This document shows, in pieces, positions 2,295-20,763 of a stretch of DNA of 20,763 bases. Position numbers and translations under genes: made by a program. Location of the stretch: positions 1 through 20,763 of IMG/VR virus record IMGVR_UViG_3300006810_000520; one strand, 5' to 3'. Within the stretch, counting starts at the first letter, position 1, and every line of letters starts with the position of its first letter. This stretch comes from a virus. The notes beneath the pieces were generated by a model. It had not been told where the DNA came from, ran no database searches, and saw nothing but the letters and a program-made list of their open reading frames with translations.

Positions 2295-2316
2295 TCACTT
2301 GTAAATTATCTCTATT

Positions 2317-3069: not shown

Positions 3070-3074
3070 TAACA

Positions 3075-3251
3075 ATGACTCGTTCAAACGAAAGATATAA
3101 CGTCTATTACAACGGACGTAAAATTCATTCAGAACTTACGGAAGAAGAGTACTTCGACGTAATGGAAGATTTGGCACAAGAGTACTATAAAAATGGAACT
3201 CCTGATGCATCTGAACTACACATTGAAACTATTGTAATTAACGGAGATTAA
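3075..3251 (+). CDS. Small phage protein of unknown function (58 aa)
   Basis: ATG at 3075 to TAA at 3249-3251 gives 58 residues, beginning MTRSNERYNVYYNGRKIHSE. A hairpin (YNVYYNGRKIHSE) is followed by an acidic helix (TEEEYFDVMEDLAQEYYKNG) and a last strand (ELHIETIVING). This two-strand, helix, strand order resembles the 60-aa protein at 2087, suggesting a family that occurs twice here. It begins 5 bp after the glycosyltransferase stop and is probably in the same transcript. No known domain was recognised; confidence that it is a gene comes from tight packing, the clean frame and the family-like composition. Confidence 0.7.
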   Translation: MTRSNERYNVYYNGRKIHSELTEEEYFDVMEDLAQEYYKNGTPDASELHIETIVINGD

Positions 3252-3256
3252 GTATT

Positions 3257-3412
3257 ATGGCAGTTAAGTCTAAAGGTGGTTTGAACAAGCACAGTTCTTA
3301 TATTCCCGGTCCACCTAAGAAGTCTCGTCAAGGCGATGGTGGTGGAACTAAATACGCCGCATCTTCTCGTAATAAAGCGCGTAAAAAGTATCGCGGACAA
3401 GGTAAAGGATGA
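3257..3412 (+). CDS. Small basic Gly/Lys/Arg-rich phage protein (51 aa)
   Basis: ATG at 3257 to TGA at 3410-3412 encodes 51 residues with a GGAG Shine-Dalgarno at 3243-3246 inside the previous gene. The sequence is rich in Lys, Arg, Gly and Ser and has the pattern YIPGPPKKSRQGDGG, then TKYAASSRNKARKKYRGQGK. I associate proteins of this P-G-x-P-K-K-(S/T)-R-Q-G ... K-(R/K)-Y-R-G-Q-G-K type with T4-like cyanophage genomes, where they are listed as hypothetical. The charge and lack of hydrophobic core suggest a disordered nucleic-acid-binding peptide; that is inference. Its stop overlaps the next start by four bases (ATGA at 3409-3412), indicating translational coupling. Confidence 0.75.
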   Translation: MAVKSKGGLNKHSSYIPGPPKKSRQGDGGGTKYAASSRNKARKKYRGQGKG

Positions 3413-3879
3413 ATAAAACGATTGAAAATGACTTGAAAGTTTGGATAAACACGATTATCAAATCAAATCCAGACCTTTCAGGATTTTCAATCTGTCCATT
3501 TGCCAAGAACAATACCTATAAAATCATAGAAAGTTCTGTTCACGACATTCATCCTCTTAAAGAAGAGTTTGGTGTCGTGATTTTTGTTATAGAAGATGAT
3601 TTAGACCTTGATCTTGGTCGTCAAAAGATACAAGAACTTAATCAATCATACCCAGAATATAAGTTTTTTGATGATTTTAGAGATGAACCTAGTTTCATAA
3701 ATGGAATACAAACAAATAATGGCAAATATAATCTCATTTTATATCAAAATGCCAAATTTTTACAAAAAATGAGACTCATATTAGCAAAAACAGACTATTA
3801 TGATCATTGGGATGATGAATATTTGAAAATAATTCTTGAACAGGATTATGATTTAGTTCAAAAATCAAGAAATAAATAA
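3409..3879 (+). CDS. Protein with CPFA motif, DUF1415-like N-terminus (156 aa)
   Basis: The ATG overlaps the stop of the basic 51-aa gene. The product has 156 residues. Near its N-terminus, Trp12 in LKVWINTIIKSNP is followed by GFSICPFAKNN with Cys29-Pro-Phe-Ala32. This W-(about 16)-CPFA spacing resembles the start of the DUF1415 family, a group without an established biochemical role. The rest is not obviously similar: two strands (FGVVIFVIEDDLDLD, KYNLILYQNAKF), a helix (GRQKIQELNQSY), and an acidic C-terminus with YYDHWDDEYLKIILEQDY. It sits just before speD. A late-promoter-like AATAAATA overlaps its stop codon. Its own function is unknown and the family link is tentative. Confidence 0.65.
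   Translation: MNKTIENDLKVWINTIIKSNPDLSGFSICPFAKNNTYKIIESSVHDIHPLKEEFGVVIFVIEDDLDLDLGRQKIQELNQSYPEYKFFDDFRDEPSFINGIQTNNGKYNLILYQNAKFLQKMRLILAKTDYYDHWDDEYLKIILEQDYDLVQKSRNK
3871..3878 (+). promoter_or_regulatory. Late-promoter-like box upstream of speD
   Basis: AATAAATA fits the NATAAATA late consensus of T4-like cyanophages and overlaps the TAA of the upstream gene. The speD ATG at 3916 is 38 bp downstream, which would give a leader of about 30 nt. The match is to a short AT-rich motif, so a chance hit is possible. Confidence 0.5.
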
Positions 3880-3915
3880 ATTGTTTGGTATATTACTGAA
3901 TTGGAAAAGTTTTCA

Positions 3916-4242
3916 ATGGGAAATCACCTCTTGTTAGAGGTGTATGATGTAAATTTTAGTCTTTTAAATGAATCAATATCTCTTCAAAAAACTATGGAGA
4001 GGGGTATTGAACGTGCAGGAATGACAATTCTGAATATATTTTCTCATTGTTTTACTCCACAAGGATGTACCATTGTTATTACGCTCTCAGAAAGTCATGT
4101 TTCTTGTCATACGTGGCCCGAAAACGGATGTATTGCGATTGATGTATATACATGTGGGGGAGGAGATCCAAAATTAATCGCTTTAGAACTGTTAAAATAC
4201 TTAAATTCTGACAATTATTCACTAAGACAGGTCTATCGTTAA
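3916..4242 (+). CDS. speD: S-adenosylmethionine decarboxylase proenzyme (SpeD), 108 aa
   Basis: SpeD decarboxylates S-adenosylmethionine to supply the aminopropyl group for spermidine. The product is short, like the bacterial/archaeal class of about 110-130 residues. From the ATG at 3916 the sequence starts MGNHLLLEVYDV, the family's usual start; GGAAAAG (3903-3909) lies 6 bp upstream, so I prefer this to the in-frame TTG at 3901. The self-cleavage site is seen as SESHVS, with cleavage expected between Glu59 and Ser60 so that Ser60 becomes the pyruvoyl cofactor. His65 in CHTWPE and Cys80 in DVYTCGGGD match the catalytic proton donor and the processing residues of the Thermotoga enzyme. All key residues are present, so it should be active. 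speD is a recurring auxiliary metabolic gene in T4-like cyanophages, thought to support polyamine supply during infection. It precedes the baseplate genes. Confidence 0.95.
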   Translation: MGNHLLLEVYDVNFSLLNESISLQKTMERGIERAGMTILNIFSHCFTPQGCTIVITLSESHVSCHTWPENGCIAIDVYTCGGGDPKLIALELLKYLNSDNYSLRQVYR

Positions 4243-4593: not shown

Positions 4594-4995
4594 ATGGCAG
4601 TAACAAGGATATCAAGATCCTTTAAAGATATTAGTCTATCTTTTGAACCACACCCTGTGACAAAAGATTTGCCAATATTAAAAAATGAAAATGCCATCAT
4701 TCGATCTATTCGCAATTTAGTTGAAACAATTCCAACTGAACGATTTTTTAATCCTATTCTAGGTTCAGAAGTTAGATCCAGTTTATTTGATTTTGTTGAT
4801 TATGCTACGGCATCCACCATAGAATCTCAAATCAAAACAACGGTGAAAAATTTTGAACCTAGGGTAGATAATTTGTTTATTGAAGTTTCGCCAAGACCAG
4901 ATCAAAATGAATTCGAAGTTACTGTTAACTTCGATATTATTGGACAGGAAATTCCAACACAAGAATATACGTTTATTCTAGAGGCAACAAGATAA
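4594..4995 (+). CDS. 25: Baseplate wedge subunit gp25 (133 aa)
   Basis: This is a GPW/gp25-family protein, the lysozyme-like-fold component that joins gp6 and gp53 in each baseplate wedge and is related to TssE of type VI secretion. The length (133 aa) matches T4 gp25 (132 aa). The sequence shows the expected strand-rich start with FKDISLSFEPHPVTKD, the helix ENAIIRSIRNLVETIPTERF, and the hallmark EPR motif at residues 88-90 in FEPRVDNLFIEV. It ends with the two terminal strands (FEVTVNFDI, QEYTFILEATR). The start follows a CATAAATA late box. One base separates its stop from the ATG of gp6, so the two are translated from the same message. Confidence 0.95.
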   Translation: MAVTRISRSFKDISLSFEPHPVTKDLPILKNENAIIRSIRNLVETIPTERFFNPILGSEVRSSLFDFVDYATASTIESQIKTTVKNFEPRVDNLFIEVSPRPDQNEFEVTVNFDIIGQEIPTQEYTFILEATR

Positions 4996-4996: not shown

Positions 4997-6904
4997 ATGC
5001 CTTTTACTAAATTTACCAACCTAGACTTTGATCAGATAAAAACCTCAATAAAGGATTATCTTCGTGCGAATTCTGATTTTACAGATTTTGATTTTGAGGG
5101 GTCAAATTTTTCAATTTTAATTGATGCACTAGCATATAATACCTATATTACAGCATTTAATTCAAACATGGTTGTGAATGAATCTTTTTTAGATTCTGCA
5201 ACTATAAGAGAAAATGTTGTTTCACTTGCCAAGAATATAGGTTACAATCCTAGATCTAGACAATCTGCACAAGCCGTTGTATCCTTTGATATAGAGACAT
5301 CCGCCAGTACTCCCACAGTTTCATTGCAGGCAGGACTTGTTTGTATTGGTGATGTTCAAGGATCATCTTATGTATTTTCTATTCCAGAAAATATCTCACA
5401 AAATGTTGTCAATGGAGTTGCAACATTTAATAATCTAACAATATATCAAGGTACATTTTTAACTAAAGAATTTGTAGTAAATAATTCTTTAGATCAAAGA
5501 TTTATTTTAGATAATTCATTTATTGATACAAAAACTATCGTTGTTCATGTAAGAGAATCTGGAGAGAACGGAAGAGGTAGAAAATATTCTTTGATAGACA
5601 ATATAGTAAAAATTAATGAATTATCTGAGATTTATTTCATTCAAGAAATTAAAGATGAAAAATATGAACTTATTTTTGGTGATGGAAGGTTTGGTAAAAA
5701 ATTACAAAACGGAAGTGTTGTAAGTGTTAGTTACATTGTAACTGATGGATTGGATGGGAATGGTGCAAGACAATTTGCATATGCAGGATCAGTTAGAAGT
5801 GCGTCAGATTCTGTAGTTATTCCAACTAATACAGTTGATGTTACGACAATTAACTCATCTACTAATGGGTCTGAAATAGAAAATATTAGTTCTATTAAAT
5901 ATTTCGCACCGAGATTGTATTCATCTCAGTTTAGAGCAGTTACTGCGAAGGACTATGAGGCAATTATACCAAGTTTAATCTATGAAAATGCGGAATCAAT
6001 ATCAGTTGTTGGTGGTGAAGAATTAGATCCTCCAGAATATGGAACTGTTTCAATTAGTATCAAACCAAAAGGTGGTACATTTATTTCGGATTTTGATAAG
6101 GAGCAAATATTATCAAAATTAAAGCAATATAGTTTGACAGGAATTAATCAAAAAATCGTAGATCTTAAGATTCTATATGTTGAAATTGATTCTTCAATCT
6201 ATTATGATTATTCTAAAATTTCCAGTGTTGAGAATTTAAAAACAAAAGTAATAAATTCTCTCGATAAGTATTCAAAATCTGTAGAATTAAATAAATTTGG
6301 TGGTAGATTTAAGTATAGTAGGGTTCTGCAAGTTATTGATAATACCGATGTTTCAATAACATCTAACATTACTAAAGTTATTATGAGAAGGGACTTAAAA
6401 GTGGCGATTAATAATTTTGCACAATATGAACTTTGTTATGGTAATAAGTTTCATATTAATACAAAAGGGTATAATATCAAGTCTACCGGATTTAGAATTT
6501 CAAATTATCCCAATACAACTGCTTATCTCACAGACACTCCAAATTCTGATGGAAAAACAGGAACAATATCTATTATTAAAATTGATGCTGATTCAAAAAC
6601 AACTCCAATAACCATTTTAGTTCAGTCCGCCGGAACAGTGGATTATGAAAGAGGAGAAATTAGACTCGGCACAATTAAAATAATCTCAACTGTTGAGCCT
6701 GAGAATGTCATTCAGATACAAGCAGTGCCAGAATCAAATGATGTAATTGGATTGAAAGACTTATATTTAGATTTTAACATCTCAAAAAGTAAAATAAATA
6801 TGGTTAAGGATGTCATCGCTTCTGGTGAAGATATCTCTGGAGTGGTATTTTCTAAAGATTCTTACAGATCAAGTTATTTAAACGGAGAAATAACGAGGAC
6901 ATAA
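4997..6904 (+). CDS. 6: Baseplate wedge subunit gp6 (635 aa)
   Basis: gp6 forms the continuous ring that links the wedges of T4-type baseplates. At 635 residues this protein is close to T4 gp6 (660 aa). The N-terminus (FTNLDFDQIKTSIKDYLRAN, then FEGSNFSILIDALAYNTYI and VNESFLDSATIRENVVSLAKNIGYNPRS, residues 7-88) is the characteristic helical start of gp6. A J-domain-like signature follows: FGDGRFGKKLQNGSVV at residues 227-242, with GLDGNGA shortly after. The region FAPRLYSSQFRAVTAKDYEAI (303-323) is a further classic gp6/J feature. The C-terminal third is beta-rich. It sits between gp25 and the giant gene, with one base between stop and start on each side, which fixes it as the second gene of a late structural operon. 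Confidence 0.95.
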   Translation: MPFTKFTNLDFDQIKTSIKDYLRANSDFTDFDFEGSNFSILIDALAYNTYITAFNSNMVVNESFLDSATIRENVVSLAKNIGYNPRSRQSAQAVVSFDIETSASTPTVSLQAGLVCIGDVQGSSYVFSIPENISQNVVNGVATFNNLTIYQGTFLTKEFVVNNSLDQRFILDNSFIDTKTIVVHVRESGENGRGRKYSLIDNIVKINELSEIYFIQEIKDEKYELIFGDGRFGKKLQNGSVVSVSYIVTDGLDGNGARQFAYAGSVRSASDSVVIPTNTVDVTTINSSTNGSEIENISSIKYFAPRLYSSQFRAVTAKDYEAIIPSLIYENAESISVVGGEELDPPEYGTVSISIKPKGGTFISDFDKEQILSKLKQYSLTGINQKIVDLKILYVEIDSSIYYDYSKISSVENLKTKVINSLDKYSKSVELNKFGGRFKYSRVLQVIDNTDVSITSNITKVIMRRDLKVAINNFAQYELCYGNKFHINTKGYNIKSTGFRISNYPNTTAYLTDTPNSDGKTGTISIIKIDADSKTTPITILVQSAGTVDYERGEIRLGTIKIISTVEPENVIQIQAVPESNDVIGLKDLYLDFNISKSKINMVKDVIASGEDISGVVFSKDSYRSSYLNGEITRT

Positions 6905-6905: not shown

Positions 6906-9900
6906 ATGATCGGAACAACTTTTGACAGTCGAGTAAAGATACATCAAGTAATTCAAAATCAACTACCAGAATTTATCTTAGATGAAAGCCCAAAGGCAGT
7001 TGATTTTTTAAAACAATATTTTATTTCTCAAGAATATCAAGGTGGACCAACCGATATTGTTGAGAATTTAGACCAATATTTAAAATTAGATAATCTAACC
7101 CCAGAAGTCGTTGGTGGATCAGTAACTTTATCAGAATCTATTAACAATTCACAAACTACTATTGTAGTAAATTCTACAAAAGGATTTCCAAATTCATATG
7201 GAATCTTAAAAATTGACGATGAGATTATTACATATAAAGAGAAAACTGAAACTACATTTAATGGTTGTATACGTGGATTTAGTGGAGTAACTAATTATCA
7301 TAAAGATTTAGAGTATGAGGAATTAGTATTCTCAGAATCTTCTAGTTCGTCTCATACTTCTGGAGCAAAAATTGAAAATCTCAGTGTATTATTCTTAATA
7401 GAATTTTATAAAAAGTTAAAATATACATTTACTCCAGGATTAGAAGACCTTGATTTTGTTTCCGATTTGAACGTTGGTAATTTTATTAAACATGCAAAAA
7501 CATTTTATCAGTCTAAAGGAACAGAAGAATCATTTAGAATACTTTTTAATATTTTATTTGGTGTAAATCCAAAAATTGTAGACCTGGAAAAATTCTTAAT
7601 CAAATCTTCTGGTGCAAATTACATTAGACGAGAGGCATTGATTGTTGAAAAAATTTCTGGAGATATTTCTTCATTATTAGGTCAGACAATTAGATCTGAA
7701 AAAGATCCTTCTATATCTGGATCAATATCAGAAATTGAAATTATTACTAGAAATAATAATACTTATTATAAAATTCTAATGTTCGTTGGTTATGATGATA
7801 TCAAAGAAACAGCATTTTCAACTTTTGTTATTACACCAAATACAAAATGTATCGATGATATCACGGTAGGAGAAACAGTAATCACCGTAGACTCTACGCT
7901 AGGATTTTTAGATTCTAGTATTTTATATGTTAATGGTAATATTATTGAATATACAAGTAAATCAATTAATCAATTTTTTGGTTGCAAGAGTTTAAACAGC
8001 AACTCAATTTCTATTTCTATACCCAAAAAATCTTCAATCGTATCTGATTTTACATATTATGGATACGAAAACGGTGATATTACAAAAAAAGTAATCTTTA
8101 GGGTAACTGGTGTTTTATCTGATCTTAGAATACTTTCGCAAAATTACAGTTTACTTGAAAATGACATTATTGGCGTAAAACAATTGGGTGATAAAATTAA
8201 TATTCCTGAGGATAATTCTAATTTAACTTATAAACAAATACATGCAAATAGTTGGATTTATAACACTAGTTCCAGTTATCAAATAGATGTTATAGGATCT
8301 TCTTTTGTAATTACAAAATCTTCTATACATAAATCTTCTATTAAAGTAGGTGATTATGTAGAAATTGTTTCTAAAATTACCAATCTTCCCGTCAGTGGAT
8401 TGGATAATGTTTTAGTGATTAGTATAGTTGATAAGAAAATAACACTAAATCAAAATCTTTCTTCATTAAATCCATTGAGATTATATGAAATAAGAAGGAA
8501 ATTAGTCAAATCAAATAGTTCTATTGTACCAATTAGTATTGATGGTAATGAAAATTTAAATAATAAAGTATTTGCTGATGTGCAAAATACATATTCTGAT
8601 AATAATGGTGAATTCATTTATGTAGCATCAAATTCATTACCTTCTTATACTATAGATAGTAATATTTTTGAGTATGAAGTATCTGATGTAAGTAATTATA
8701 GTGAAATAACGCAAAAATATTCCCAACTTGAGTTAAATGCTAATATATCATTTTTAACCGGAGATGAAATTTATTATACTTATTCAGATACCCCAATTTC
8801 TGGATTGGAAGAAGGCAAATACTATGTTGAATTAGTATCATCCAGAAAAATAAGATTATATACATCAAGAAACTTTATTGATATTTCATCGTATATCGAA
8901 TTTGGATCCTTAACTTCTGGCACACATACATTCACATTATTGTCACAAAAAGAAAAATTCATTTCACCTCAAAAAACACTAAAGAAATTTAAACTAGATC
9001 CAGATATTGGTAATATTGAAGGTGATGTAACACTTCCAGGATCGATTGGAATGTTATCTAATGGTGTTGAGATATTCAACTATAAATCAAATGATAAAAT
9101 CTATTATGGTCCATTAGAGTCTGTTTCAACTTTAAATCCTGGAAAAAATTATGATGTTATAAATCCACCAAAATTATTGGTTTCCGGTAATGCAAAAGTT
9201 CAACCAATTTTACAGGGAAGTATTGCAGAAGTTTATGTAGACCCTCAAGAATTTGACATTGAAGTAAATGTTTCAATAGCGGTTACTGGTGGAAATGGAA
9301 AAAATTCGATTCTAAAACCAATAATTACTCGCAAAAGAAGAGAGGTACTCTTTGATGCTAGAGAATCATCGAAAGGTGGTGGTGTTGATATTACTAATGA
9401 AAGAATTACTTTCTTATCAGATCACAATTTTATCACGGGGCAAGAAGTAACTTATGATAATAATGGGAATTCTAATATAGGAATATCATCATTCAAAGCT
9501 GGAAATTATGATCAAGAACAAGAATTGGTTGACGAATCTGTATATTTTGTAAAAGTATTAAACAATACTACTGTTCAGATTCATAATACTTTTGGAGATT
9601 CGATATCTGGTGTTAACACAGTTGGATTTACTACTATTGGAACATCTGGCATTCAAAAGTTTAAAACAAAAATATCAAATACACTATCAGAAATTAAAGT
9701 TTATGATGGTGGAGAAGGATTCACAAATAGAAATTTAAGAGTTAATCCATCTGGTATATCAACTTATAAAAGTACTATTAATTTTGTAAATCATGGATTT
9801 TCAACAGGAGAAATAGTAACTTATAATTATCAAACTAGTCCAATAACTGGAATATCTACAAACAATCAATACTATGTAATTAAACTTACTAATAATGCTT

Positions 9901-12900
9901 TTAGAATTTGTGATGCTGGAATTGGTGCGACTATTAGGGAAAATTATGAAAAAAATAATTATGTAAAATTTTCTAGTACTGGATCAGGATATCAAATCTT
10001 CAATTATCCATCAATATCAGTAACTGTAAATTATAATTCAATAGGAGTTGGTACAACGGCAATTAGAGGTACAATAGTTGCAACTCCAGTAGTTAAAGGT
10101 GGAATAGTTGATACTTACGTATATGAAAAAGGATCTGATTATGGATCTAAAGTATTAAATTTCCATAAAAAACCATCAATAAAAGTTGAAGAACCCAATC
10201 ATGCTCAAATAAAACCCATTATTAGTGATGGAAAAATAACCAAAACCCTGATTCTTTATTCCGGATCTAAGTATAGTTCTACCCCAGATATTGCTGTTAT
10301 AGGAGATGGTACTGGGGCTAAATTAAGGGGTATTATAGGATCAAACGGAAAACTTTCCTCGATAATTGTAGTTAATCAGGGATTTGGATATAGTGAAGAA
10401 AAAACATCAATTTTAGTTAGATCTCCCGGACAGAATGTAATTTTTAATCCTAATGTAAGAAGTCTATCTATAAATCAAGGATATAAGTATGGTATACAAG
10501 GAGCATTTGGTAGAGAAGTTGCAAATGAGTTATTATATAAATCTGATAAAGGATTGCAATATTTTGTATATGCATATACTAAAAAGATTCAAGATTACTT
10601 TAATGATACGGGAACAACACATTCACCAATAATTGGATGGTCTTATGATGGTATTCCAATATATGGACCATACGGATATACGGATCCTTATAATTCAAAT
10701 ACATCACCAAAATTAATTTCTACTGGATATGGTACAACTACTATTGTAAATAGACCTTCTGAGTTTGAAATTGGATTTTTTAAGGAAGATTATGCATTTA
10801 ATGGGGAAGGTGACTTAGATGAACATAATGGTAGATATTGTGTAACCCCAGAATTTCCAAATGGAACCTATGCTTATTTTGCAACTTCAGAATTAAATGT
10901 TCTTGGAGAATTAACTGGAAAGTTTCCGTATTTTATTGGAAATCATTTTAGATCAAAATTTATATCTGATAATATAAATTTAAATCAATCTACATTTGAT
11001 TTAAATAATTCAGGTTTGTTTAGAAATACCTTACCATATAATGTTAATGATCAATATGCTGGGAATGACTTTATTGTCGAATCAAATGAACTAATTAACC
11101 AAACTGCACAAATTGAGTCTGTCAGTCATGGTGAAGTAACATCTTTAAAGATTATAGAATCAGGAGATAATTACAAGGTATCTGACAGATTGAATTTTGA
11201 TGAATCTAATTCCGATGGATTTGGAATCAATGCCCAAGTTTCGGAATTAAAAGGTAGACAAATTGTTGAAATTAATACAAATAGGATTACTTATCAGAAT
11301 GTTGTTGTTACTAGAAAAAATAATAAAAAACTTGAATTTAGAATAGATCCATATCATGAATTTAATAGTGGTGATAATATTAATATTTCAGGAATAACTA
11401 CAGATTTATTCACTCTAAATGGTCAATATAAAATAGGATTTACAACTTATACTTCATACACCACCAAGTACATTCCACCGGCAGGTAGTACTGGTATTGT
11501 AACATTCATGACTTTACCTTTCATTCCCGGAAATATTTCTATAGGAAGTAGTATCAAAATTGAAAATGAAGTTGTAGAAATCCTTGATAAATTTGATATT
11601 CAAAATACCTTAAAAATTAAAAGAGTTGGATCTGGTGTATCTCATGCTGAAGGAACTTCGGTTTATTTCTTACCCAATTCGTTTGAAATTGATAAAGATA
11701 CTGATCCGTTCAATTCCAAAAATACTACAAAAGTGTATTTCAATCCAAGAAATACGTTGGGGATTGGAACTACATCAGGTGGTGGAGATAATAGAAGTTA
11801 TTGGATAGATGGTGTAAAATATTACACATTTACACCAACCCAATCAATATTCATACCAAAACATCCATTTAGAACTGGACAAAAACTTACTTTTAGAAAG
11901 CAGTCTGGAACTTCTGGATTAACAATAAGAGACGAAAGTGGAAATACTTCTATATTATTATTATCATTGAGTCAGACAATGTATGCTATTAATAAGTCTA
12001 AAGACTATATTGGAATTGCTACTAGTAGAGAATCTGCAGTAACTGGTAATGGAGTATTTTTCCCTGGACCAACAGGAACAGATAATGAGTTTTATACTAT
12101 CGAATCATCAGAAACGCAACTTCTTTGTGATGTAAATAAACTTGAGTCTACAATAGTAACTACATCTGAACATTTACTTCAGAAAAATGATCAAATAGAT
12201 CTCATAATTAAACCAAATTTATCTGTTGGAATTGGAACTACAACTTCAATAAAATTAAGATATAGTGATCAGTCAAAGTCTTTGTTAGTACATAAAACTT
12301 TAATCGAAAATGTTAATACCTCCACGAATACTATAGGTATAACATCACATTTATTTAATACTGGCGATTTAGTTTATTATGATTCTGAAGATACTGTTGC
12401 CGCTGGATTGGTCACAGGAAAATATTATGTTTGTAAGATAGATCATAACAATATTAAATTATCTACAAATTATTATGATTGCCTTTTAGATTCACCAAAA
12501 ACTGTGTCTATTACTTCTAGTGGAGGTAATTTACAAGAACTTTGGTTTGTTAATCCAAAATTAAACTTTGTAAACAACAATAATATTATATTTGATGCTA
12601 CAGATCCATCATTAGTAGGGTATAATTTTAATCTGTATTATGATAATAAATTTAACAATAAATTTATATTAGATTTTGAAGACCCGACTCCAATTTTATC
12701 GGGAGTTGGAACTTTTGGGTCGTCTGGATTTTTAACTATTAACCATTCTGGTAGAATTCCACAAAAATTATATTATAATTTAGAAAAAAATCACACACCA
12801 CAAGATATTGATGAAGATGTTATTGATTTTTGTGAGCTTGAATTTTCTAATAGTGCTTATAATGGGCGATATAATGTTCATGGAATAGGTTCTACAACAT

Positions 12901-15900
12901 TTAGTATTTCTTTAAGAAACACTCCAGAAAAATTAAATTATACTAGTTCTAATTGTGATGTTTTGGAGTATGTTACAACTTCAAAGTCTGCCAAAGGTCC
13001 AATTAATAAAGTAAAAATTATTTCTGGTGGATCTAATTATAATAAGTTACCAGTTTATAATGGTGCAATATCTCAAAATGGCGATGGTGCATATATTTTA
13101 CCAAAATCTTCAAGCATTGGTAGATTAAATAGATTTAGAATTATCAATGAAGGATTTGAATATTCGTCGGATAAAACTTTAGTGCCATTTGCAGAAATTC
13201 CAAAAGTAGTCTCACTTAAAAATTCTAAAAAAGTATCTTTCGTCGATGTTGTTTATGGTGGAAAATATTATCTGACACCACCAAATTTAGTTTTAGTGAA
13301 TAAAACTACGGGTAAAAAGATAGATAGTGGATTATTAACTGCAAATGTAAATGGAAATTCAATTGTTAGTGTAGATATTCAAAAAACTCCTGTAGGAATT
13401 CCTCTTGAAACCCCCATAGTAAGATCTGTAAATAATACTAATGGTGTTAAAATTGACACTATTCAAACCTCAGTAACTGGTGTAGGTACAATTTTCTTAG
13501 CGACTCCTATTGTAGGATTTGCAACATCTCCTTTTGTAACTGGTGATTTCGTTTTTGTTGAGGGTGTCACTAATTATGATCCCGGAATTGGTAATACAAT
13601 TGGTCTTGGGTTTAATTCTGCAGATCATGGGTATGAATTTTTTGAGGTTACTAACTATTTTACAGGTTCTAATCCAGGAAAACTTGAATTTAAAATTCCA
13701 AAATTATATGGAAATCCTGGACTAGCAAAAACTGTCCAAGATTCTTTTGCGACGGTAGTAAATAAAACCAAAATGCCATCATTTACAGTTACTACAGAAA
13801 AGTCTATTTTCTTAGAAACTGAACAATTATATTCCTCCAAAAATGGTCAAGAATTCGAAAAAAGAGATTTATATGTATCATATTCCGATGGAAACTCGGT
13901 AAGATTAACTGGTAGTTATAATCTAACTATAGGTGAACTCATAAAAGGATCTTATTCATTCTTTACTGGTCAAGTAAGTGATATTGAATCATATGAAGGT
14001 GTATTCGACGTTAGTTTTTCAAAAACAGAGGATATTGGGTGGATTGATGATGCAGGAAAAATAAGTAATGATACTCAGGTAATACAAGATAATGATTATT
14101 ATCAAAATCTTTCATACACTATTAAAAGTTCTAAGAGTTGGGAAGAGATAGTAACACCGGTTAATAACTTAGTCCATCCTACTGGACTTAAGAATTTTGC
14201 AGACATAGAAGTGCAGCAAAATGCTCAGACTGGAATTGCAACATTTGGTAATAGTCAAATTGAAATTATCAGAGACTGTATTCAAGTTTCTGATGTTACT
14301 ACTGTTAATAATATAGATTTGGTTTATGATATAGAACCTTTAATAGATTCTACAAATATTGTTAAGTTTCAAAACCTTAAACTTGCAGATTACGTTGAGT
14401 GTAGAACTAATAGAGTATTAACTATAGATGATATTAGTCCATTATTCTCCAGTATCGAAGACGAGAAAAAATTAGCATACACAATTGTTTCACCATTAAG
14501 TATATTAAAAAGACTTAATAAAGCTTTAATACAAATTAAAGAGATTGGTGGTAATGACATACAAATATCGGAAATTGTTGTTATTAATGATCCTGATGAA
14601 TCATTCACTTTACAAAGAGGATTTGTTTCAAACAAAAATACTTCTATAGGTGATGTAACTGGATTTATTGATGATTTTAGTACATTCTTCTTGAAATTTG
14701 ATCCGGTAGATACTTTCAATACAGATTATGAATTAAAAATTTTGAAGACAGAATTCACAACTTCATTTACCGGTATTTCAACTTATAGTCTAGGGATGAA
14801 TAGACTAATTTCATCTAATGCTATAGTTAATCCAGGAATAACAACTACTATAGTATCATTTGAATCTGAAAAATTTGATTCATTCTATACCAGTGTTCAT
14901 TTTTATGATATTGTGACTAATGAAGCAAACTATGTGGAACTTTTTGTCACACATGATAACGAAAATACATATGTAAATGAATTCTATTTTGATAGTAATG
15001 ATTCTAATTATGGAAATTATATTGGATCTTTTGGTGCATCACTATCTAATGGTGTTATAAGTCTTGATTTTGAAAATTTAAATATCAGCAATAAGTACAG
15101 ATTCTCTAGTAAGACAGTTGGATTTGGATCAACAGCTGTTGGAATAGAAACATATAGATTTAAATATTCTGGACAACCTGATGGATTAGAGGAAACTGCA
15201 TTATATGCATCAGAATATGTTAATTCAGCATCTAATGTTGATGTAGTTGTTGTAGATTCAAGAAGAATTACATCTTTAAAATCTACCGTAAGAGTTTCTT
15301 ATGGACAAACATCTGCTCTACATCAAGTATTGCTTGTTTCAGATAAAATTGATGTATCTACTACTCAATATCCATTCGTATCTATTGGTGCAACATCTGG
15401 AATAGGCACATTTGGCGGATCTATAGATGGATTTGATTTAAAATTAACATTTTATCCAGATGTTACAGAAACAAATGGTGCTAATTTAGAAATTAGAGCA
15501 TTTACTGAAGAATTCTATGGTGAGTTTGATGAGATTAATATACCACCAAAACTTTTCTATGGACAAGTTACAGAGTCATTTAATATTGCAAAATATTTCG
15601 GTTCTAATTCGGAAAGAAAAGATAGATTAAACTTCACATTAAATCACAATGGAACACCAATATTCCAAAAAGAATTTGATCCATCTGATATTAATGTTTT
15701 AGATCGCAATACTCATACATTTAATATTACAGACCATTTCTTCAGCACTGGAGAAGAACTTTATTACAGACCTAAATCTACTTATGTTGGTGTTGGAACT
15801 GTTGCAGTTGGTATAGGTACAACTGAAAATTATCTTGGGATAACTACAGATATACTTCCAGAAAAAGTGTATCCAATTAAAATAGATAATAATCAATTTA

Positions 15901-18900
15901 GATTATCAACAAAAAGAGAATATGCTCTTGCTGGTATATATGTGACATTTACATCATATGGTGAAGGAAACGCTCATCAACTCGAAATGGCTAAGAAAAA
16001 TGAAAAAGCATTTATCACCGTTGCAAACTTAACTCAATATCCATTGTCATGGACACCAAATTATCAAACATTGCAAAATAACGGTGGATCAATTGGAGTT
16101 GGAAATAGTATTTTTGCTTTAAGTGGAATTAGTAGTGTTGTAATTAGAGATGTAATTAAAATTGATGATGAATATATGAAGATTGTTAATGTTGGATTTG
16201 GTACAACGAGTATAGGTCCTATATTTAGTGGAGATGTTCCATTAATTGAAGTGACTCGTGGATTTTGTGGGACTGCATCATCAGCACACACTGATGGGTC
16301 TGAGGGTAGAATTTATAAAGGATCTTACAATATATTTGGAAAAGAAATATTCTTTACAGATCCTCCAAGAGGAAATATCACGGATCTTGTTGGATTAAAT
16401 GAAAGTAATCTTGTTAGGGAAAGAGCAAAATTCTCTGGTAGAGTATTCTTAAGAAAAGATTATACACGAAATACTGTGTATGATAATATTTCTTCAGAAT
16501 TTACTGGAATTGGTCAAACATACACATTAACAACATTGGGTGTTAATACTGTAGGTCTTGGAACAACTGCAGGAAATGGACTGATATTTATTAATAGCAT
16601 TTTCCAAACTCCAACTACAGAAAATCCAACTTTAGCAAACTATCAAATTGTTGAGGATGTTAATGTTGGTATTACTAGTGTTATATTCTCCGGTATTACC
16701 AGTTCAAATGGTAAAAAAATAGTTTCTGATTATGACCAAAATCAAAATCAATTACCTAGAGGCGGTCTAATTGTTTCATTAGGATCAACTCCAGGTCTTG
16801 GATATGCCCCCCTAGTTGGAGCAAAAGTTATTACAAGAGTTGATGGGTCGGGAACAATTCAAAGTATAGTTGGTGTTAATACAATTGGGTCAGAATTAAA
16901 CATCGATTCTGCATATTATGATCATAATGTGGGGGTTTTAGAACTCACTACTGCTGAAGATCATAGATTTGGTGAGACTGGAATTTCTGTCGCAACTAAT
17001 AGTGTATTTCTGGAAGGATTGGAATTTAGTTGTTCTGTAGAACACACAGGTATAACATCAACTATTTTCCCATATCCCGGATCAAGTCCATATGGATTTA
17101 TTTTCCCAGTAATTGGTATTGCGTCTGATAAAACATTTACTGTTAGAGTGGGGACTAGTACAATTCCACATACTTATGTTGGATCTGGAACTGCATACCC
17201 TTATTATTATGATTTAACCTATGGTTCTGGATATAGAGGTACAGTATCAGTTGCAGTAACAGAAACAGGGCATACTGGGGATGTGGCCACAATAACAGCA
17301 ACTGTTGGTCTTGGCGGTACATTGGCGTTTAATATTGTTGATGGTGGTACTGGTTATACAAATCCTCAAGTTGTTGTACCACCACCATCTTATGAATATA
17401 TGCCAATTACTGGTATATCTAGATTAGGTGTTGGAGAAACTACCGAATGTGGAACTGGCGTATTATTAAATCTTGAAATTGGACCAAGTGGATCTACCGT
17501 TGGTATTGGTACTACATTATTTGAAGTTTCATCATTTAAAATAACTAGATCTGGATTTAATTTCAGGGAAGGTGATGTATTTACTGTGGGTGGATTAGTT
17601 ACTGATAGAAGTTTAAGTCAACCGATTGAAGAATTTAAAGTAACCGTCTTAGAAACATTTAGTGACTCTTTTGGTGCTATACAATTGGGTGAAATGAATT
17701 ATATTGATTCTATAAGAAATTTACAAGATGGAAAACGAGTAAGATTCCCACTTTATTATAATTCAGAACTTTTAAGCTTTGAATCTAATCCAGAGGATCC
17801 AGATTCGTCATTAATAGAATTTGATGCACTTTTAGTTATTTTCATAAATGGAATATTACAAGAACCTAAGAAAAACTATAATTTCAGTGGTGGTACAACA
17901 TTTACATTTACTACAGCACCTAAAAAAGAAGATAATGTTTCCATCTTCTTCTATGTTGGTACTAGAGATGACGATAGCATTAGAGTTTCGGTGTCTCAAT
18001 TCATTGAACCTGGAGATATTATTCAAATAAACAGTAATAATAATTTACTGGATAGTACAGTTACCCAAAATAATAGAACTGTAGCATTAATTAGCGGATC
18101 TGATAGATTGGAAACAAATATCTATAGAGAACAGGGAATTGATGAGATTAATCCAAAACCACTGTATTGGACTAGAAAGAAAAAAGATGTTGTTGTTAAT
18201 GATGAAATTATTTCAAAAGCAAGAGATTCTATAGAACCTCAAGTGTATCCAACGTCTAAAATTATTCAAAATTTCAATATAGATGATACTGATTTATTCA
18301 TAGATAATGCAGAATTCTTCGATTATGAAGAAGGTTTACCAATAGATCCATTTGATTGTTTGATCATAAACGATCAAGATGTAAGAGTTGCTGGTGCAGT
18401 TACAGCTATAGTTTCTGCTGGTGGAACAATCAGTTCTTTAGATATTGTAGATGATGGTGATGGATATAGTGGATCTTCAGTTCAGGTAAAAATTTCAGCT
18501 CCAAAAAGAATTGGTGTTGGGATAGGAACCACAGCAACTGCAACAATAGAAGTATTGGGTGGCAAATTAACCAACAATGTAACAATTACTAATCCCGGAT
18601 TCGGTTATACCAGAACAAATCCCCCAAATGTAATTGCACCCTTCCCCCAAGGATCTACGGAATTGATTAAAGATATATCAATTGCTCAAGGATTTGATGG
18701 AGTTATTACAGGAATTGCTGTAACTGATGGATTAAATGGTGCATCGTTAGCATTAGAATTTAAAATTGTTAGAGATCCTGCTGTATATACTGATTTAAAT
18801 ATTGGATATCCAATTTATATTAATAATACTAGAGTTGGTAGTGGAGTTACTTCTATTGAATATAATGATAATGATACTGTTGCTATAGGAACTGCATTTT

Positions 18901-19190
18901 TAGATAATATCTACCACATTCACGGTATCAATAAAACTTTGGGAATAATTACTTGTAATGTTGCATCAGACACTAGTATTGTTGGTATTGCCACTACAGG
19001 AACTGTTTCTTATCCTGTTGGAACTTTCTCATGGGGAAGATTATCTGGATTCTCTAGGTCAAATCCAGTATCAATAGCTGTTACTGGTAAAACTCTTGAT
19101 GTTGGACTGTCAACTTTTGCAAGTGTTCAAAGGAGAGGAACTGGATTAAGAAATGTCGGACCTTTGAAAAAGCGGGTAATGGGATTATAA
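6906..19190 (+). CDS. Giant gp7-position baseplate wedge protein with modular extension and YHYH domain (4094 aa)
   Basis: A single uninterrupted frame of 4094 codons, four times the length of T4 gp7 (1032 aa). Residues about 15-55 and 160-300 resemble the C-terminal third of T4 gp7: PEFILDESPKAVDFLKQYF early, then AKTFYQSKGTEESFRILFNI and SLLGQTIRSEKDPSISG. A beta module (about 69-125) is inserted between these parts. The remainder is a modular beta-rich body. Family A (GFP...IDDEIITY type) occurs near 69-125, 321-360 and 3065-3133. Family B (H-F-x-T-G-D-x-V-x-Y ... G-x-Y-Y-V) occurs near 608-680, 829-921, 954-1035, 1805-1883 and 2933-3027. Family C (G-x-G-Y) occurs near 1059-1179, 2031-2150, 3479 and 3849. 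A YHYH domain lies at 1195-1335, INGxxQxP modules near 3228 and 3641, and scattered GIGTT motifs throughout. No signal peptide or membrane helix. It most likely forms the wedge core plus a long peripheral appendage. Confidence 0.85.
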   Translation: MIGTTFDSRVKIHQVIQNQLPEFILDESPKAVDFLKQYFISQEYQGGPTDIVENLDQYLKLDNLTPEVVGGSVTLSESINNSQTTIVVNSTKGFPNSYGILKIDDEIITYKEKTETTFNGCIRGFSGVTNYHKDLEYEELVFSESSSSSHTSGAKIENLSVLFLIEFYKKLKYTFTPGLEDLDFVSDLNVGNFIKHAKTFYQSKGTEESFRILFNILFGVNPKIVDLEKFLIKSSGANYIRREALIVEKISGDISSLLGQTIRSEKDPSISGSISEIEIITRNNNTYYKILMFVGYDDIKETAFSTFVITPNTKCIDDITVGETVITVDSTLGFLDSSILYVNGNIIEYTSKSINQFFGCKSLNSNSISISIPKKSSIVSDFTYYGYENGDITKKVIFRVTGVLSDLRILSQNYSLLENDIIGVKQLGDKINIPEDNSNLTYKQIHANSWIYNTSSSYQIDVIGSSFVITKSSIHKSSIKVGDYVEIVSKITNLPVSGLDNVLVISIVDKKITLNQNLSSLNPLRLYEIRRKLVKSNSSIVPISIDGNENLNNKVFADVQNTYSDNNGEFIYVASNSLPSYTIDSNIFEYEVSDVSNYSEITQKYSQLELNANISFLTGDEIYYTYSDTPISGLEEGKYYVELVSSRKIRLYTSRNFIDISSYIEFGSLTSGTHTFTLLSQKEKFISPQKTLKKFKLDPDIGNIEGDVTLPGSIGMLSNGVEIFNYKSNDKIYYGPLESVSTLNPGKNYDVINPPKLLVSGNAKVQPILQGSIAEVYVDPQEFDIEVNVSIAVTGGNGKNSILKPIITRKRREVLFDARESSKGGGVDITNERITFLSDHNFITGQEVTYDNNGNSNIGISSFKAGNYDQEQELVDESVYFVKVLNNTTVQIHNTFGDSISGVNTVGFTTIGTSGIQKFKTKISNTLSEIKVYDGGEGFTNRNLRVNPSGISTYKSTINFVNHGFSTGEIVTYNYQTSPITGISTNNQYYVIKLTNNAFRICDAGIGATIRENYEKNNYVKFSSTGSGYQIFNYPSISVTVNYNSIGVGTTAIRGTIVATPVVKGGIVDTYVYEKGSDYGSKVLNFHKKPSIKVEEPNHAQIKPIISDGKITKTLILYSGSKYSSTPDIAVIGDGTGAKLRGIIGSNGKLSSIIVVNQGFGYSEEKTSILVRSPGQNVIFNPNVRSLSINQGYKYGIQGAFGREVANELLYKSDKGLQYFVYAYTKKIQDYFNDTGTTHSPIIGWSYDGIPIYGPYGYTDPYNSNTSPKLISTGYGTTTIVNRPSEFEIGFFKEDYAFNGEGDLDEHNGRYCVTPEFPNGTYAYFATSELNVLGELTGKFPYFIGNHFRSKFISDNINLNQSTFDLNNSGLFRNTLPYNVNDQYAGNDFIVESNELINQTAQIESVSHGEVTSLKIIESGDNYKVSDRLNFDESNSDGFGINAQVSELKGRQIVEINTNRITYQNVVVTRKNNKKLEFRIDPYHEFNSGDNINISGITTDLFTLNGQYKIGFTTYTSYTTKYIPPAGSTGIVTFMTLPFIPGNISIGSSIKIENEVVEILDKFDIQNTLKIKRVGSGVSHAEGTSVYFLPNSFEIDKDTDPFNSKNTTKVYFNPRNTLGIGTTSGGGDNRSYWIDGVKYYTFTPTQSIFIPKHPFRTGQKLTFRKQSGTSGLTIRDESGNTSILLLSLSQTMYAINKSKDYIGIATSRESAVTGNGVFFPGPTGTDNEFYTIESSETQLLCDVNKLESTIVTTSEHLLQKNDQIDLIIKPNLSVGIGTTTSIKLRYSDQSKSLLVHKTLIENVNTSTNTIGITSHLFNTGDLVYYDSEDTVAAGLVTGKYYVCKIDHNNIKLSTNYYDCLLDSPKTVSITSSGGNLQELWFVNPKLNFVNNNNIIFDATDPSLVGYNFNLYYDNKFNNKFILDFEDPTPILSGVGTFGSSGFLTINHSGRIPQKLYYNLEKNHTPQDIDEDVIDFCELEFSNSAYNGRYNVHGIGSTTFSISLRNTPEKLNYTSSNCDVLEYVTTSKSAKGPINKVKIISGGSNYNKLPVYNGAISQNGDGAYILPKSSSIGRLNRFRIINEGFEYSSDKTLVPFAEIPKVVSLKNSKKVSFVDVVYGGKYYLTPPNLVLVNKTTGKKIDSGLLTANVNGNSIVSVDIQKTPVGIPLETPIVRSVNNTNGVKIDTIQTSVTGVGTIFLATPIVGFATSPFVTGDFVFVEGVTNYDPGIGNTIGLGFNSADHGYEFFEVTNYFTGSNPGKLEFKIPKLYGNPGLAKTVQDSFATVVNKTKMPSFTVTTEKSIFLETEQLYSSKNGQEFEKRDLYVSYSDGNSVRLTGSYNLTIGELIKGSYSFFTGQVSDIESYEGVFDVSFSKTEDIGWIDDAGKISNDTQVIQDNDYYQNLSYTIKSSKSWEEIVTPVNNLVHPTGLKNFADIEVQQNAQTGIATFGNSQIEIIRDCIQVSDVTTVNNIDLVYDIEPLIDSTNIVKFQNLKLADYVECRTNRVLTIDDISPLFSSIEDEKKLAYTIVSPLSILKRLNKALIQIKEIGGNDIQISEIVVINDPDESFTLQRGFVSNKNTSIGDVTGFIDDFSTFFLKFDPVDTFNTDYELKILKTEFTTSFTGISTYSLGMNRLISSNAIVNPGITTTIVSFESEKFDSFYTSVHFYDIVTNEANYVELFVTHDNENTYVNEFYFDSNDSNYGNYIGSFGASLSNGVISLDFENLNISNKYRFSSKTVGFGSTAVGIETYRFKYSGQPDGLEETALYASEYVNSASNVDVVVVDSRRITSLKSTVRVSYGQTSALHQVLLVSDKIDVSTTQYPFVSIGATSGIGTFGGSIDGFDLKLTFYPDVTETNGANLEIRAFTEEFYGEFDEINIPPKLFYGQVTESFNIAKYFGSNSERKDRLNFTLNHNGTPIFQKEFDPSDINVLDRNTHTFNITDHFFSTGEELYYRPKSTYVGVGTVAVGIGTTENYLGITTDILPEKVYPIKIDNNQFRLSTKREYALAGIYVTFTSYGEGNAHQLEMAKKNEKAFITVANLTQYPLSWTPNYQTLQNNGGSIGVGNSIFALSGISSVVIRDVIKIDDEYMKIVNVGFGTTSIGPIFSGDVPLIEVTRGFCGTASSAHTDGSEGRIYKGSYNIFGKEIFFTDPPRGNITDLVGLNESNLVRERAKFSGRVFLRKDYTRNTVYDNISSEFTGIGQTYTLTTLGVNTVGLGTTAGNGLIFINSIFQTPTTENPTLANYQIVEDVNVGITSVIFSGITSSNGKKIVSDYDQNQNQLPRGGLIVSLGSTPGLGYAPLVGAKVITRVDGSGTIQSIVGVNTIGSELNIDSAYYDHNVGVLELTTAEDHRFGETGISVATNSVFLEGLEFSCSVEHTGITSTIFPYPGSSPYGFIFPVIGIASDKTFTVRVGTSTIPHTYVGSGTAYPYYYDLTYGSGYRGTVSVAVTETGHTGDVATITATVGLGGTLAFNIVDGGTGYTNPQVVVPPPSYEYMPITGISRLGVGETTECGTGVLLNLEIGPSGSTVGIGTTLFEVSSFKITRSGFNFREGDVFTVGGLVTDRSLSQPIEEFKVTVLETFSDSFGAIQLGEMNYIDSIRNLQDGKRVRFPLYYNSELLSFESNPEDPDSSLIEFDALLVIFINGILQEPKKNYNFSGGTTFTFTTAPKKEDNVSIFFYVGTRDDDSIRVSVSQFIEPGDIIQINSNNNLLDSTVTQNNRTVALISGSDRLETNIYREQGIDEINPKPLYWTRKKKDVVVNDEIISKARDSIEPQVYPTSKIIQNFNIDDTDLFIDNAEFFDYEEGLPIDPFDCLIINDQDVRVAGAVTAIVSAGGTISSLDIVDDGDGYSGSSVQVKISAPKRIGVGIGTTATATIEVLGGKLTNNVTITNPGFGYTRTNPPNVIAPFPQGSTELIKDISIAQGFDGVITGIAVTDGLNGASLALEFKIVRDPAVYTDLNIGYPIYINNTRVGSGVTSIEYNDNDTVAIGTAFLDNIYHIHGINKTLGIITCNVASDTSIVGIATTGTVSYPVGTFSWGRLSGFSRSNPVSIAVTGKTLDVGLSTFASVQRRGTGLRNVGPLKKRVMGL
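6948..7805 (+). other. gp7-core region of the giant protein, split by an inserted module
   Basis: Residues 15-300 of the giant protein. By comparison with T4 gp7 as I remember it, PEFILDESPKAVDFLKQYF corresponds to the segment with YLLQDSNFEAFCEAYIQYL, and FYQSKGTEESFRILFNILFG to FYSTKGIEASYKFLFKVLYN. The following LLGQTIRSEKDPSISG matches LVGQTIYTATGRC. In T4 these lie near residues 690-830, so here the gp7 C-terminal region is at the N-terminus and the T4 N-terminal two thirds are absent or replaced. An inserted A module occupies roughly residues 69-150. Confidence 0.7.
10488..10910 (+). other. YHYH domain inside the giant structural protein
   Basis: Residues about 1195-1335. The signature elements are SPIIGWSYDGIPIYGPYGY (from residue 1241, with Gly1244 and Trp1245) and LDEHNGRYCVTPEFPNGTYA (from 1304), which are the two conserved blocks of YHYH proteins (GxxxDGxPIYGP; D-x-x-N-G-R-x-x-x-T-P-x-x-P-x-G-T-Y-x-Y). 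YHYH domains are found in secreted bacterial and marine phage proteins; their activity is not established. Upstream lies a C-type module and downstream more beta modules, so it is embedded, not terminal. Confidence 0.85.
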
Positions 19191-19212: not shown

Positions 19213-20763
19213 ATGTCCGCAATTGTAACAGATCAATTTAGAATACTGAACGCCTCCAATTTCGTAAATTCCATTGAAACTGGCAGTGATTCATATTATG
19301 TCTTTGTAGGACTTCCAAACCCTCAGTCGAATGATGGTCCTGGAAGAAATGAAAACTGGGATAGACTTGATATCCCGGACCCTAATTTGGCAGTTGTTCC
19401 AAATCCTGTTGATAATTTCTCATATCTAGATCATTATGGGCAGATGTCATTATTTGGTAAAAAGATAACTGGATCTACAATAAGAAGAGCTGTAAGAAGA
19501 ATTGATTGGACGCAGGGAACTAGATATGAAATGTATCGACATGACTATAGTGTTATAAATCCTTCCCCAAACTCCAATAGTAATAGATTATATGATACCA
19601 ATTACTATGTGATGAATTCTCAATACCAAGTATACATCTGTATAGATAATGGATCTTCTGGAATTAATACAAATGGCAACCAATCAAAGGATGAACCAGT
19701 ATTTACAGATTTAGAACCATCAAGAGCAGGGGAAAGTGATGATGGATATCTTTGGAAATATTTGTATACCGTTACTCCTAGCGACATTGTAAAATTTGAT
19801 TCAACTGAATATATCACCATTCCAAGTCAATGGGAAACATCTACAAACCCCCAAATTGTCTCTGTGAGAGAAAATGGAGATTCTTCTATAAACGAAAATC
19901 AAATTAAAAAAGTTTATATTGAAAATGCCGGAAAAAATTATTCTTCAGGAGAAGTTGATATTTTAGGTGATGGAACTGGTGGAAGAGTTTTTATAGATGT
20001 TAATGAAAATGGAGAAATTACAACTGCTTTGGTAACTTCTGGTGGATCTGGTTATAGTTATGGTATAGTTGACCTTGGACCTTTACAACCTTCAGGAAGT
20101 TTACCATATCCGGCAAACTTAATTCCAATTATCCCACCATCTAGAGGTCATGGATATGATATTTATAGGGAACTGGGAGCGGATAAACTTTTAATTTATA
20201 CTAGATTTGATGATTCTACCAAAGATTTCCCAGTTGATACAAAATTTTCTCAAATTGGTATTGTAAAAAATCCAACTAAATTTATTTCAACGGAAACTTT
20301 TGTTGAAAGTCAGTTTTCAAGTTTGTATGCACTAAAAGTTACTCCAACGTCTAACAATATACCAGAAATTGGTGAAAAAGTTTCACAAGATACTGATGGT
20401 ACTGGAAATAGAATTGCCGTTGGATATGTTGCATCATATGATACTGAAACTAAAGTTTTAAAATATTTTAAAGATAGATCTTTATATTATAATCCATCAT
20501 CCTATGATACTATGGATTATTTTGATGTCTCCGTAAAGGCGAATGCTACTATAGATTTTGTTTATACTGGAGGATCAATATCTACTCCTAGTGGATTTAC
20601 AGCATCTATAGATAATTTTAGTGGGATTACAACAGTTCCAACAAATAGTACAAAAATAATAAACTTAGGAACTGAATTTCAAAATGGTGTATCTCTACCA
20701 GAGATAAATAAAGAATCGGGGGATATTATTTACATTGATAATAGACCTTTAATTTCTAGAAAT
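19213..20763 (+). CDS. 8: Baseplate wedge subunit gp8 with a beta-module insertion (3' partial, 517 aa visible)
   Basis: gp8 is a dimeric wedge protein that bridges gp7 and gp10 in T4. The start MSAIVTDQFRILNASNFVNS matches the T4 start (AIVTSKFRTEKMLNFYNSI). Further shared landmarks are RRAVRRIDW at residues 91-99, DGYLWKYLY at 177-185, HGYDIYRELGADKL in the middle, FSQIGIVKNP, and DIIYIDNRPLI near the window end. In T4 the last motif lies about 20 residues before the C-terminus, so only a short tail is missing. The visible 517 residues exceed T4 gp8 (334 aa). Part of the excess, residues about 232-290, is a G-x-G-Y beta module (KNYSSGEVDILGDGTGG, SGGSGYSYG) of the same family as in the giant protein. 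The antisense frame at 19620-19820 is a shadow. Confidence 0.92.
   Translation, partial: MSAIVTDQFRILNASNFVNSIETGSDSYYVFVGLPNPQSNDGPGRNENWDRLDIPDPNLAVVPNPVDNFSYLDHYGQMSLFGKKITGSTIRRAVRRIDWTQGTRYEMYRHDYSVINPSPNSNSNRLYDTNYYVMNSQYQVYICIDNGSSGINTNGNQSKDEPVFTDLEPSRAGESDDGYLWKYLYTVTPSDIVKFDSTEYITIPSQWETSTNPQIVSVRENGDSSINENQIKKVYIENAGKNYSSGEVDILGDGTGGRVFIDVNENGEITTALVTSGGSGYSYGIVDLGPLQPSGSLPYPANLIPIIPPSRGHGYDIYRELGADKLLIYTRFDDSTKDFPVDTKFSQIGIVKNPTKFISTETFVESQFSSLYALKVTPTSNNIPEIGEKVSQDTDGTGNRIAVGYVASYDTETKVLKYFKDRSLYYNPSSYDTMDYFDVSVKANATIDFVYTGGSISTPSGFTASIDNFSGITTVPTNSTKIINLGTEFQNGVSLPEINKESGDIIYIDNRPLISRN

Follow-up and report, generated by a model that had tools for sequence, protein, structure and literature searches.

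What does a frame of 4094 codons encode when it stands where phage T4 carries gp7, and where in so long a chain do the parts of a baseplate wedge protein lie? Such a frame occupies positions 6906..19190 on the plus strand of the window, that is, of the whole stretch of 20,763 nt analysed here (IMG/VR virus record IMGVR_UViG_3300006810_000520). It opens with ATG and runs for 4094 codons without a stop, giving a protein of 4094 aa and 450 kDa, and the other five frames across 6906-19190 contain 200-552 stops apiece. A frameshift or assembly artefact was ruled out as the cause of this length, which is accepted as real because dozens of separate contigs carry similar frames. A preliminary description of this DNA had placed the frame at the T4 gp7 locus, and Pfam and PHROG matches to its neighbours bear this out. 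Ahead of it lie gp25, a sheath initiator or baseplate wedge protein (4594..4995, +; Pfam GPW_gp25 9.8e-12; phrog_261 2.4e-51), and the baseplate wedge protein gp6 of 635 aa (4997..6904, +; Pfam Gp6-like_1st 5.3e-18; phrog_219 1.2e-198); behind it lies the baseplate wedge protein gp8, cut at the window end (19213..20763, +; Pfam Phage-Gp8 5.2e-9; phrog_438 1.3e-145). One base separates gp6 from the giant frame, and 22 bases separate the giant frame from gp8.

The order gp25-gp6-gp7 is common to related phage records, and gp8 comes next in most of them. S-PM2 has one small extra gene between gp7 and gp8 (528 bases, annotated as a virion structural protein; L087, 26133-26660), Melnitz has several genes there, and no gp8 was seen adjoining the gp7-position gene of RHph_I1_18 or BUCT-ZZ01. 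The Synechococcus phage S-SRM01 shares the gene order of the window, down to the S-adenosylmethionine decarboxylase gene that stands two genes upstream of gp25 (speD in the window, 3901-4242, +; Pfam 8.8e-29). Further upstream, the window encodes a 250-aa protein (2317-3069, +) that matches phrog_1574, to which no function is given, and more weakly a phage glycosyltransferase family (1.2e-6), and a 139-aa protein (1185-1604, +) with a DUF6011 domain at its end (4e-15). The G+C content is 0.39-0.43 in positions 1-2000 and 0.26-0.36 in the remaining window (1000-base steps). Late-promoter-like sites (TATAAATA) occur twice in the window, and at least as many were present in 96 of 100 shuffles, so they are not evidence.

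The giant protein is not unique; it is a further member of a catalogued family. Its best PHROG is phrog_2885 ('baseplate wedge subunit'), a family of 4179 columns that scores 3530 bits over the whole protein, the best stretch running from residues 3-3345 of the protein against positions 3-3357 of the profile. With a 400-residue N-terminal query at E 1e-3, relatives were found in 464 of 50,697 phage records, 457 of which have Synechococcus, Cyanophage or Prochlorococcus as their first word; among the matches listed, several are annotated as gp7 or 'baseplate wedge initiator' and others as structural or hypothetical protein. The giants range from 3048 to 7312 aa, with lengths in the records of 3048 (S-PM2), 3891 (S-8S55), 3895 (S-SRM01), 4446 (P-HM1), 5195 (P-SSM2), 6619 (S-SZBM1) and 7312 aa (P-SSM4). 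The S-SRM01 giant is 50% identical to the window protein across residues 1-3327, and that of P-SSM2 is 43.5% identical across the C-terminal residues 3467-4088; most of the size difference between P-SSM2 and the window protein falls at window residues ~3377-3466 (1046 residues versus 90), which marks an internal size hot spot (nt ~17034-17303) ahead of a conserved end. The gp7 frames of three loci (L027, L015 and L020) close early, at 2791, 3587 and 3587 aa, the first of them just 350 residues after its last core block, and several relatives stay open past 3650 aa; the early closure may reflect natural truncation, a frameshift or an error in assembly. The new element here is the location of the gp7 core inside the giant protein.

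Identity of the giant protein

None of the T4-specific Pfam models Gp7_helical, Gp7_5th and Gp7_6th matched the window protein at E 0.1, and PF23786 (Baseplate_wedge) reached 21.4 bits, below its curated cut-off of 27. That cut-off is passed, with neighbouring matches summed, by gp212 of the Pseudomonas phage pf16, a protein of 523 aa at the same locus, which gives two separate BLAST matches in the window protein, at residues 193-267 and 2391-2436. We rested the assignment on a core profile built from the gp7-position proteins of ten phages, picked among the best 60 of 424 matching records, with T4 and all giants left out. These proteins are small: X1 (498 aa), pf16 (523), RHph_I1_18 (528), 7757 (586), BUCT-ZZ01 (607), OC (631), Cr30 (767), Melnitz (896), phiN3 (1006) and DLP_6 (1288). 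The core common to them comprises ~280 residues, lies at the N-terminus in all ten and runs without interruption in OC and 7757.

The profile was applied to T4 gp7, 23 T4-family loci, seven giants and a set of controls. T4 gp7 gave a single match at residues 645-890 (iE 5.7e-14, with the database size set to 1000), and all 23 T4-family loci were matched. The window protein gave three ordered matches, at residues 10-66, 166-291 and 2361-2442 (blocks N, H and C; full-sequence E 1.1e-30), and three ordered blocks were likewise found in each of the six other giants, P-SSM4 being covered as far as residue 6530. None of the controls, which comprised three gp6 proteins, gp8, gp53 and 20 shuffles, fell below 1. 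Profiles of the single blocks were significant on the window protein (N 3.4e-7, H 2.2e-8, C 8e-15) and weak on T4 gp7 for both N (0.46) and C (0.017); the beta domain profile alone was not significant in the window protein. Against a six-frame background of 7,889 ORFs from 208 loci, 206 loci each had a single ORF that matched H, and every one of the 106 ORFs containing block C contained N or H as well. When the small-core alignment was searched against PDB sequences, the top two matches were gp7 proteins, from a Klebsiella phage and from T4 (6.4e-12 and 4e-9), followed by the next match at 0.22; PDB sequence searches gave one chance-level match for the full-length window protein and nothing useful for its N-terminal part. 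By sequence comparison the window frame encodes gp7, and the assignment holds. The preliminary description had likened residues 15-300 to the later part of T4 gp7 and had named T4 residues of about 680-850 in advance as the expected counterpart; that counterpart falls within the T4 match at 645-890, and the T4-free profile does match residues 10-291, a stretch that holds only about two thirds of the core; the remaining part, at residues 2361-2442, had gone unnoticed there.

A structure model of window residues 1-310, built on 77 sequences, points the same way. In a Foldseek search of 350,542 PDB chains, gp7 chains (those of 9f4a and 5iv5, assigned as gp7 by length and PDB sequence search) ranked 1, 2 and 6, with E values of 2.3e-4, 3.8e-3 and 5.2e-2. 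The model predicts helices in the core, and pLDDT is low in much of the core, including the block N helices; the global TM was just 0.15-0.16, a poor superposition. Given these two weaknesses, we count the ranking as support for gp7 identity that is not conclusive. An earlier model from 41 close relatives had placed gp7 at rank 3 (E 0.035), and adding S-PM2-type loci moved it to rank 1. The VIA-align rows shown were filled by a beta module rather than the core, and gp7 was absent among the matches listed.

A different protein has been proposed for the gp7 role. According to one report, pelagi- and cyanomyophages lack T4 gp7 and VrlC appears to take its place (PMC7029224); another lists gp7 as one of the non-cyanophage core genes (PMC3037559). 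Were VrlC the functional gp7 of these phages, the giant would be an unrelated structural protein, a reading that we consider extremely unlikely. In the three records that use the name (S-SRM01, P-HM1 and phiN3), VrlC is a separate gene after gp8, and the VrlC-position proteins of S-SRM01 and S-8S55 are without a significant N, H or C block, whereas the giant contains all three. The weak full-sequence core profile values of these two proteins (1.4e-3 and 2.1e-4) came, as single-block profiles showed, from the beta part alone (1.2e-3 and 4.5e-5). The core stands at the gp7 position in seven of the seven giants examined, as well as in S-SZBM1 and in the pelagiphage HTVC008M, where the frame has 1016 codons. 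Our comparisons thus do not support the published statement that VrlC replaces gp7, and detection of the core speaks against gp7 being missing. Nor did the related records searched reveal a second gp7 gene carrying domains of the T4 type: of ten records, T4 itself was the one in which Gp7_helical and domain VI exceeded their cut-offs (S-SRM01 gave a sub-threshold helical domain match, E 0.09), and the first 62 columns and the C-block columns of the small-core alignment matched only the gp7-position gene in 11 records.

A core split in three, in unchanged order

Block N (residues 10-66; 6933..7103, +) covers columns 5-61 of the core profile (iE 6.9e-6) and, by analogy with Vibrio phage XM1 and T4, probably forms the gp7-type helix-turn-helix of the core bundle. 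Block H, with the helices that follow and the beta domain (residues 166-291; 7401..7778, +), covers columns 62-182 (iE 9e-12), the match to the gp7-type beta domain extending to residue 291. Block C (residues 2361-2442; 13986..14231, +; columns 202-282, iE 7.1e-13) carries the IQDxxYYQxxSYxI...HPxGLK segment and corresponds to T4 gp7 ~832-890, ending in the HPxG segment. Only 9 residues precede the core, so the absence of the T4 N-terminal part noted in the preliminary description stands, as does the presence of a very large addition: about 99 and about 2070 residues lie inside the core and 1652 after it. The first break maps at T4 gp7 ~701-702 and the second at ~813-832. The profile delimits both a large insertion between the beta domain and block C (residues 292-2360, 2069 aa; 7779..13985, +), which falls inside T4 Pfam domain V (766-861), and a C-terminal extension (residues 2443-4094, 1652 aa; 14232..19187, +).

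The same arrangement recurs in a survey of viral contigs, which yielded 160 loci with frames long enough in 35 of the window type (2460 aa) and 47 of the S-PM2 type (1900 aa). Block C was present in all 82 (35/35 and 47/47), and all three blocks were found in order in 75 (34 of 35 window-type and 41 of 47 S-PM2-type loci) under the filter used; among the remaining seven, H was missing in one and N in six. The first insertion measures 99-106 residues in window-type loci and 97 in S-PM2-type loci, and the second 1942-2079 and 1483-1530 residues, respectively; in P-SSM4, the first is enlarged to ~600 residues. S-SRM01, P-SSM2, P-SSM4, S-SZBM1 and the other giants share with the window protein both the locus and the three-way split core. 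The profile matches show that the core is split in three, that its order is unchanged and that the positions of the breaks are fixed. We found no description of a split gp7 core in the open-licence literature.

These positions bear directly on how the protein came to be so long. The preliminary description held that the C-terminal region of gp7 had been moved to the N-terminus, with everything past residue ~300 forming one giant C-terminal fibre. It is true that residues 10-291 match T4 gp7 from residue 645 and that no T4-like N-terminal part stands ahead of them. However, the core matches T4 and the window protein in the same order, so the 'moved' reading is wrong: N, H and C follow one another identically in T4, the small gp7s and the giants, and the core lies at the N-terminus of the small relatives without exception. 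The single C-terminal appendage does not survive either, as the last core segment stands behind the 2070-residue insertion in 82 of 82 loci and insertions inside the core make up over half of the added mass. A relocated core with one long fibre is, in our judgement, very unlikely.

T4 gp7 (PDB 5IV5, 5HX2) has the same gene neighbours and a core, at 645-890, collinear with that of the window protein, but in T4 the core is unbroken, with ~640 residues before it and 142 after. The same ordered core is N-terminal in pf16 gp212, Xanthomonas X1, Ochrobactrum OC and Desulfovibrio 7757, and insertions of up to hundreds of residues occur at the second site in Cr30, phiN3, DLP6 and pf16. The 242-residue gp17 of phage XM1, called an orthologue of T4 gp7, also starts with the helix-turn-helix (PMC10457771). 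Because the core is N-terminal in the ten small gp7s and in XM1 gp17, the ~640-residue N-terminal part of T4 looks, by parsimony, like a lineage-specific addition. Anabaena phage A-1(L) has a (gp31)2-gp32 wedge in which gp32, of at least 151 residues, is the third subunit; this protein has a helical bundle at its start and holds a fibre by a C-terminal loop (PMC10966104). It may be the equivalent of gp7, and both it and XM1 gp17 are likened to the window protein by their published descriptions rather than by sequence. Since gp17 of XM1 is described as holding the spikes with a loop inside the chain and with its C-terminal part (PMC10457771), additions inside and after the core would be where peripheral parts are expected.

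One of the giants is known from virions. In CsCl-purified particles, S-SZBM1_208 (6619 aa), whose core is split in three as in the window protein, was detected by mass spectrometry with 71 peptides and 13.5% coverage (PMC9146016 Table 1). ORF122 of S-CREM2, with 1937 codons between the gp6- and gp8-position genes, gave 91 unique peptides (PMC10665884) and is, by its locus, a candidate relative. As the published proteomics gives peptides and coverage per gene rather than intact mass (PMC9146016), such data would also fit a giant that is cleaved after translation, its core pieces or extensions acting as separate proteins. We think this unlikely, as block C is conserved in sequence and shares a reading frame with N or H in all 82 loci, and core pieces that pack together would have to meet again after cleavage.

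Beta modules and the YHYH segment

The preliminary description had ~3800 residues of beta modules following the core. Beta modules do account for much of the rest of the protein, but recognised copies cover just part of the residues after 300, and one module lies between residues 66 and 166. The latter is copy 1 of module A (residues 75-128; 7128..7289, +), between blocks N and H; copy 2 lies at residues 315-364 (7848..7997, +). Module A flanks block H on both sides in all seven giants, with a third copy near the C-terminus in S-PM2. Module B occurs in the window protein, always on the plus strand, at residues 735-778 (9108..9239), 1019-1081 (9960..10148), 1109-1170 (10230..10415), 1409-1458 (11130..11279), 2031-2090 (12996..13175), 2110-2158 (13233..13379), 3438-3491 (17217..17378) and 3840-3910 (18423..18635), and numbers 5-15 copies per giant in the seven giants; the counts refer to a permissive iterative threshold of E 1e-3. 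Model residues 65-160 resemble domains of the VP1, GP4, JBD30 and LKA1 proteins (Z 8.7-11.5), and model residues 309-382 resemble 9n71_A (Z 10.6, rmsd 1.6, 69 aligned). The beta modules look like building blocks common to several virion proteins. The beta columns (~200-380) of the small-core alignment match many other frames in related genomes, among them the 521-codon frame that occupies the gp8 position in S-SRM01.

One segment of the large insertion raises the possibility of an enzyme. Residues 1234-1333 (10605..10904, +) match the C-terminal half of the YHYH domain (PF14240; 1.2e-23, positions 88-187 of 193), at 84.5 bits against a cut-off of 25, and a segment of this type is also present in P-SSM2, S-8S55, P-HM1, S-PM2 and P-SSM4. 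The histidine motif that names the family would presumably be placed ahead of the conserved segment. We examined 93 frames of at least 1500 aa, of which 65 carry the segment under a strict pattern, and in none of the 65 did HYH or HFH, the pattern searched for, occur within the 60 residues before it. YHYH domains are predicted to be metal-dependent hydrolases (PMC7824862), a prediction not relied on here because neither pattern stands in that stretch. It could nevertheless be argued that the added residues serve mainly as an enzyme, a YHYH hydrolase digesting the envelope, and not as architecture, the more so as the half-domain region is among the best conserved parts outside the core in distant giants. 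Given the match to only half of the profile, the lack of HYH or HFH in the 60 residues ahead of it and a segment of ~100 of 4094 residues, this seems to us improbable.

A model for the cyanophage wedge

We propose that cyanophage gp7 consists of a small wedge core with beta-rich accretions at three points and with the core order kept, a reading to which we assign a probability of roughly 0.85. By comparison with T4, XM1 and the TssF-TssG complex of the type VI secretion system (T6SS), the three blocks would fold together into a core (~280 residues in relatives) that pairs with two copies of gp6, presumably as one (gp6)2-gp7 heterotrimer per wedge; TssF-TssG offers the analogy for core blocks joining two gp6 copies (PMC6300606). 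About 99 residues with one beta module would have been accreted between the helix-turn-helix and the next helices, ~2070 inside the equivalent of T4 gp7 domain V and ~1650 behind the core. The large insertion breaks into the domain-V equivalent and is followed by the conserved HPxG segment, so it would start and end at the wedge, both of its ends probably returning to the same wedge domain. Anchored twice in this way, it would be an out-and-back excursion forming a peripheral lobe or skirt on each wedge and not a simple C-terminal fibre, and residues 2443-4094 would be the only part able to form a free arm.

The role of the extra mass is the least certain part of this proposal. In T4, which has six gp7 copies per baseplate, the N-terminal part of gp7 together with gp10, gp11 and gp12 provides the periphery, which holds the adhesins, contacts the host and relays the contraction signal. 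The extra mass of the giants may take over these tasks. Among 15 records, the gp11 family was found in one, T4 itself, and gp9/gp10 N-terminal domains in three, T4, P-SSM4 and Melnitz, so that a replacement of the T4 periphery would not be uniform. In P-SSM4 (AY940168.2), the gp9/gp10 N-terminal domain (79118-79330; 9.8e-14) belongs to a frame of 415 codons that closely follows the 7312-aa gp7. According to the list of Clokie et al., cyanomyoviruses lack g10, g11 and g12 (PMC2984593). Neither for a T4-like cyanophage baseplate nor for a giant gp7 did our searches of PDB sequences and of the open-licence literature turn up a solved structure. We go one step further tentatively, at a little less than even odds: gp7 might be scaffold and periphery in one chain, the lobes of the six wedges forming a continuous skirt that replaces gp10-gp11-gp12 and moves with the wedge at firing. 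If so, each lobe would comprise ~1500-2700 residues emerging from the fixed domain-V break, usually with ~1000 more behind, and six copies of the window type would amount to ~2.7 MDa.

T4-like myoviruses are abundant in the ocean (PMC3037559), and placing the core residue by residue separates the wedge-bound parts from the likely peripheral parts of a chain of 4000-7000 residues. One conserved machine part appears to have been enlarged in two ways, before the core in T4 and inside and after it in the cyanophages, and the gp7-position proteins, which range from 498 to 7312 aa, offer a size series for the growth of insertions inside a working domain.
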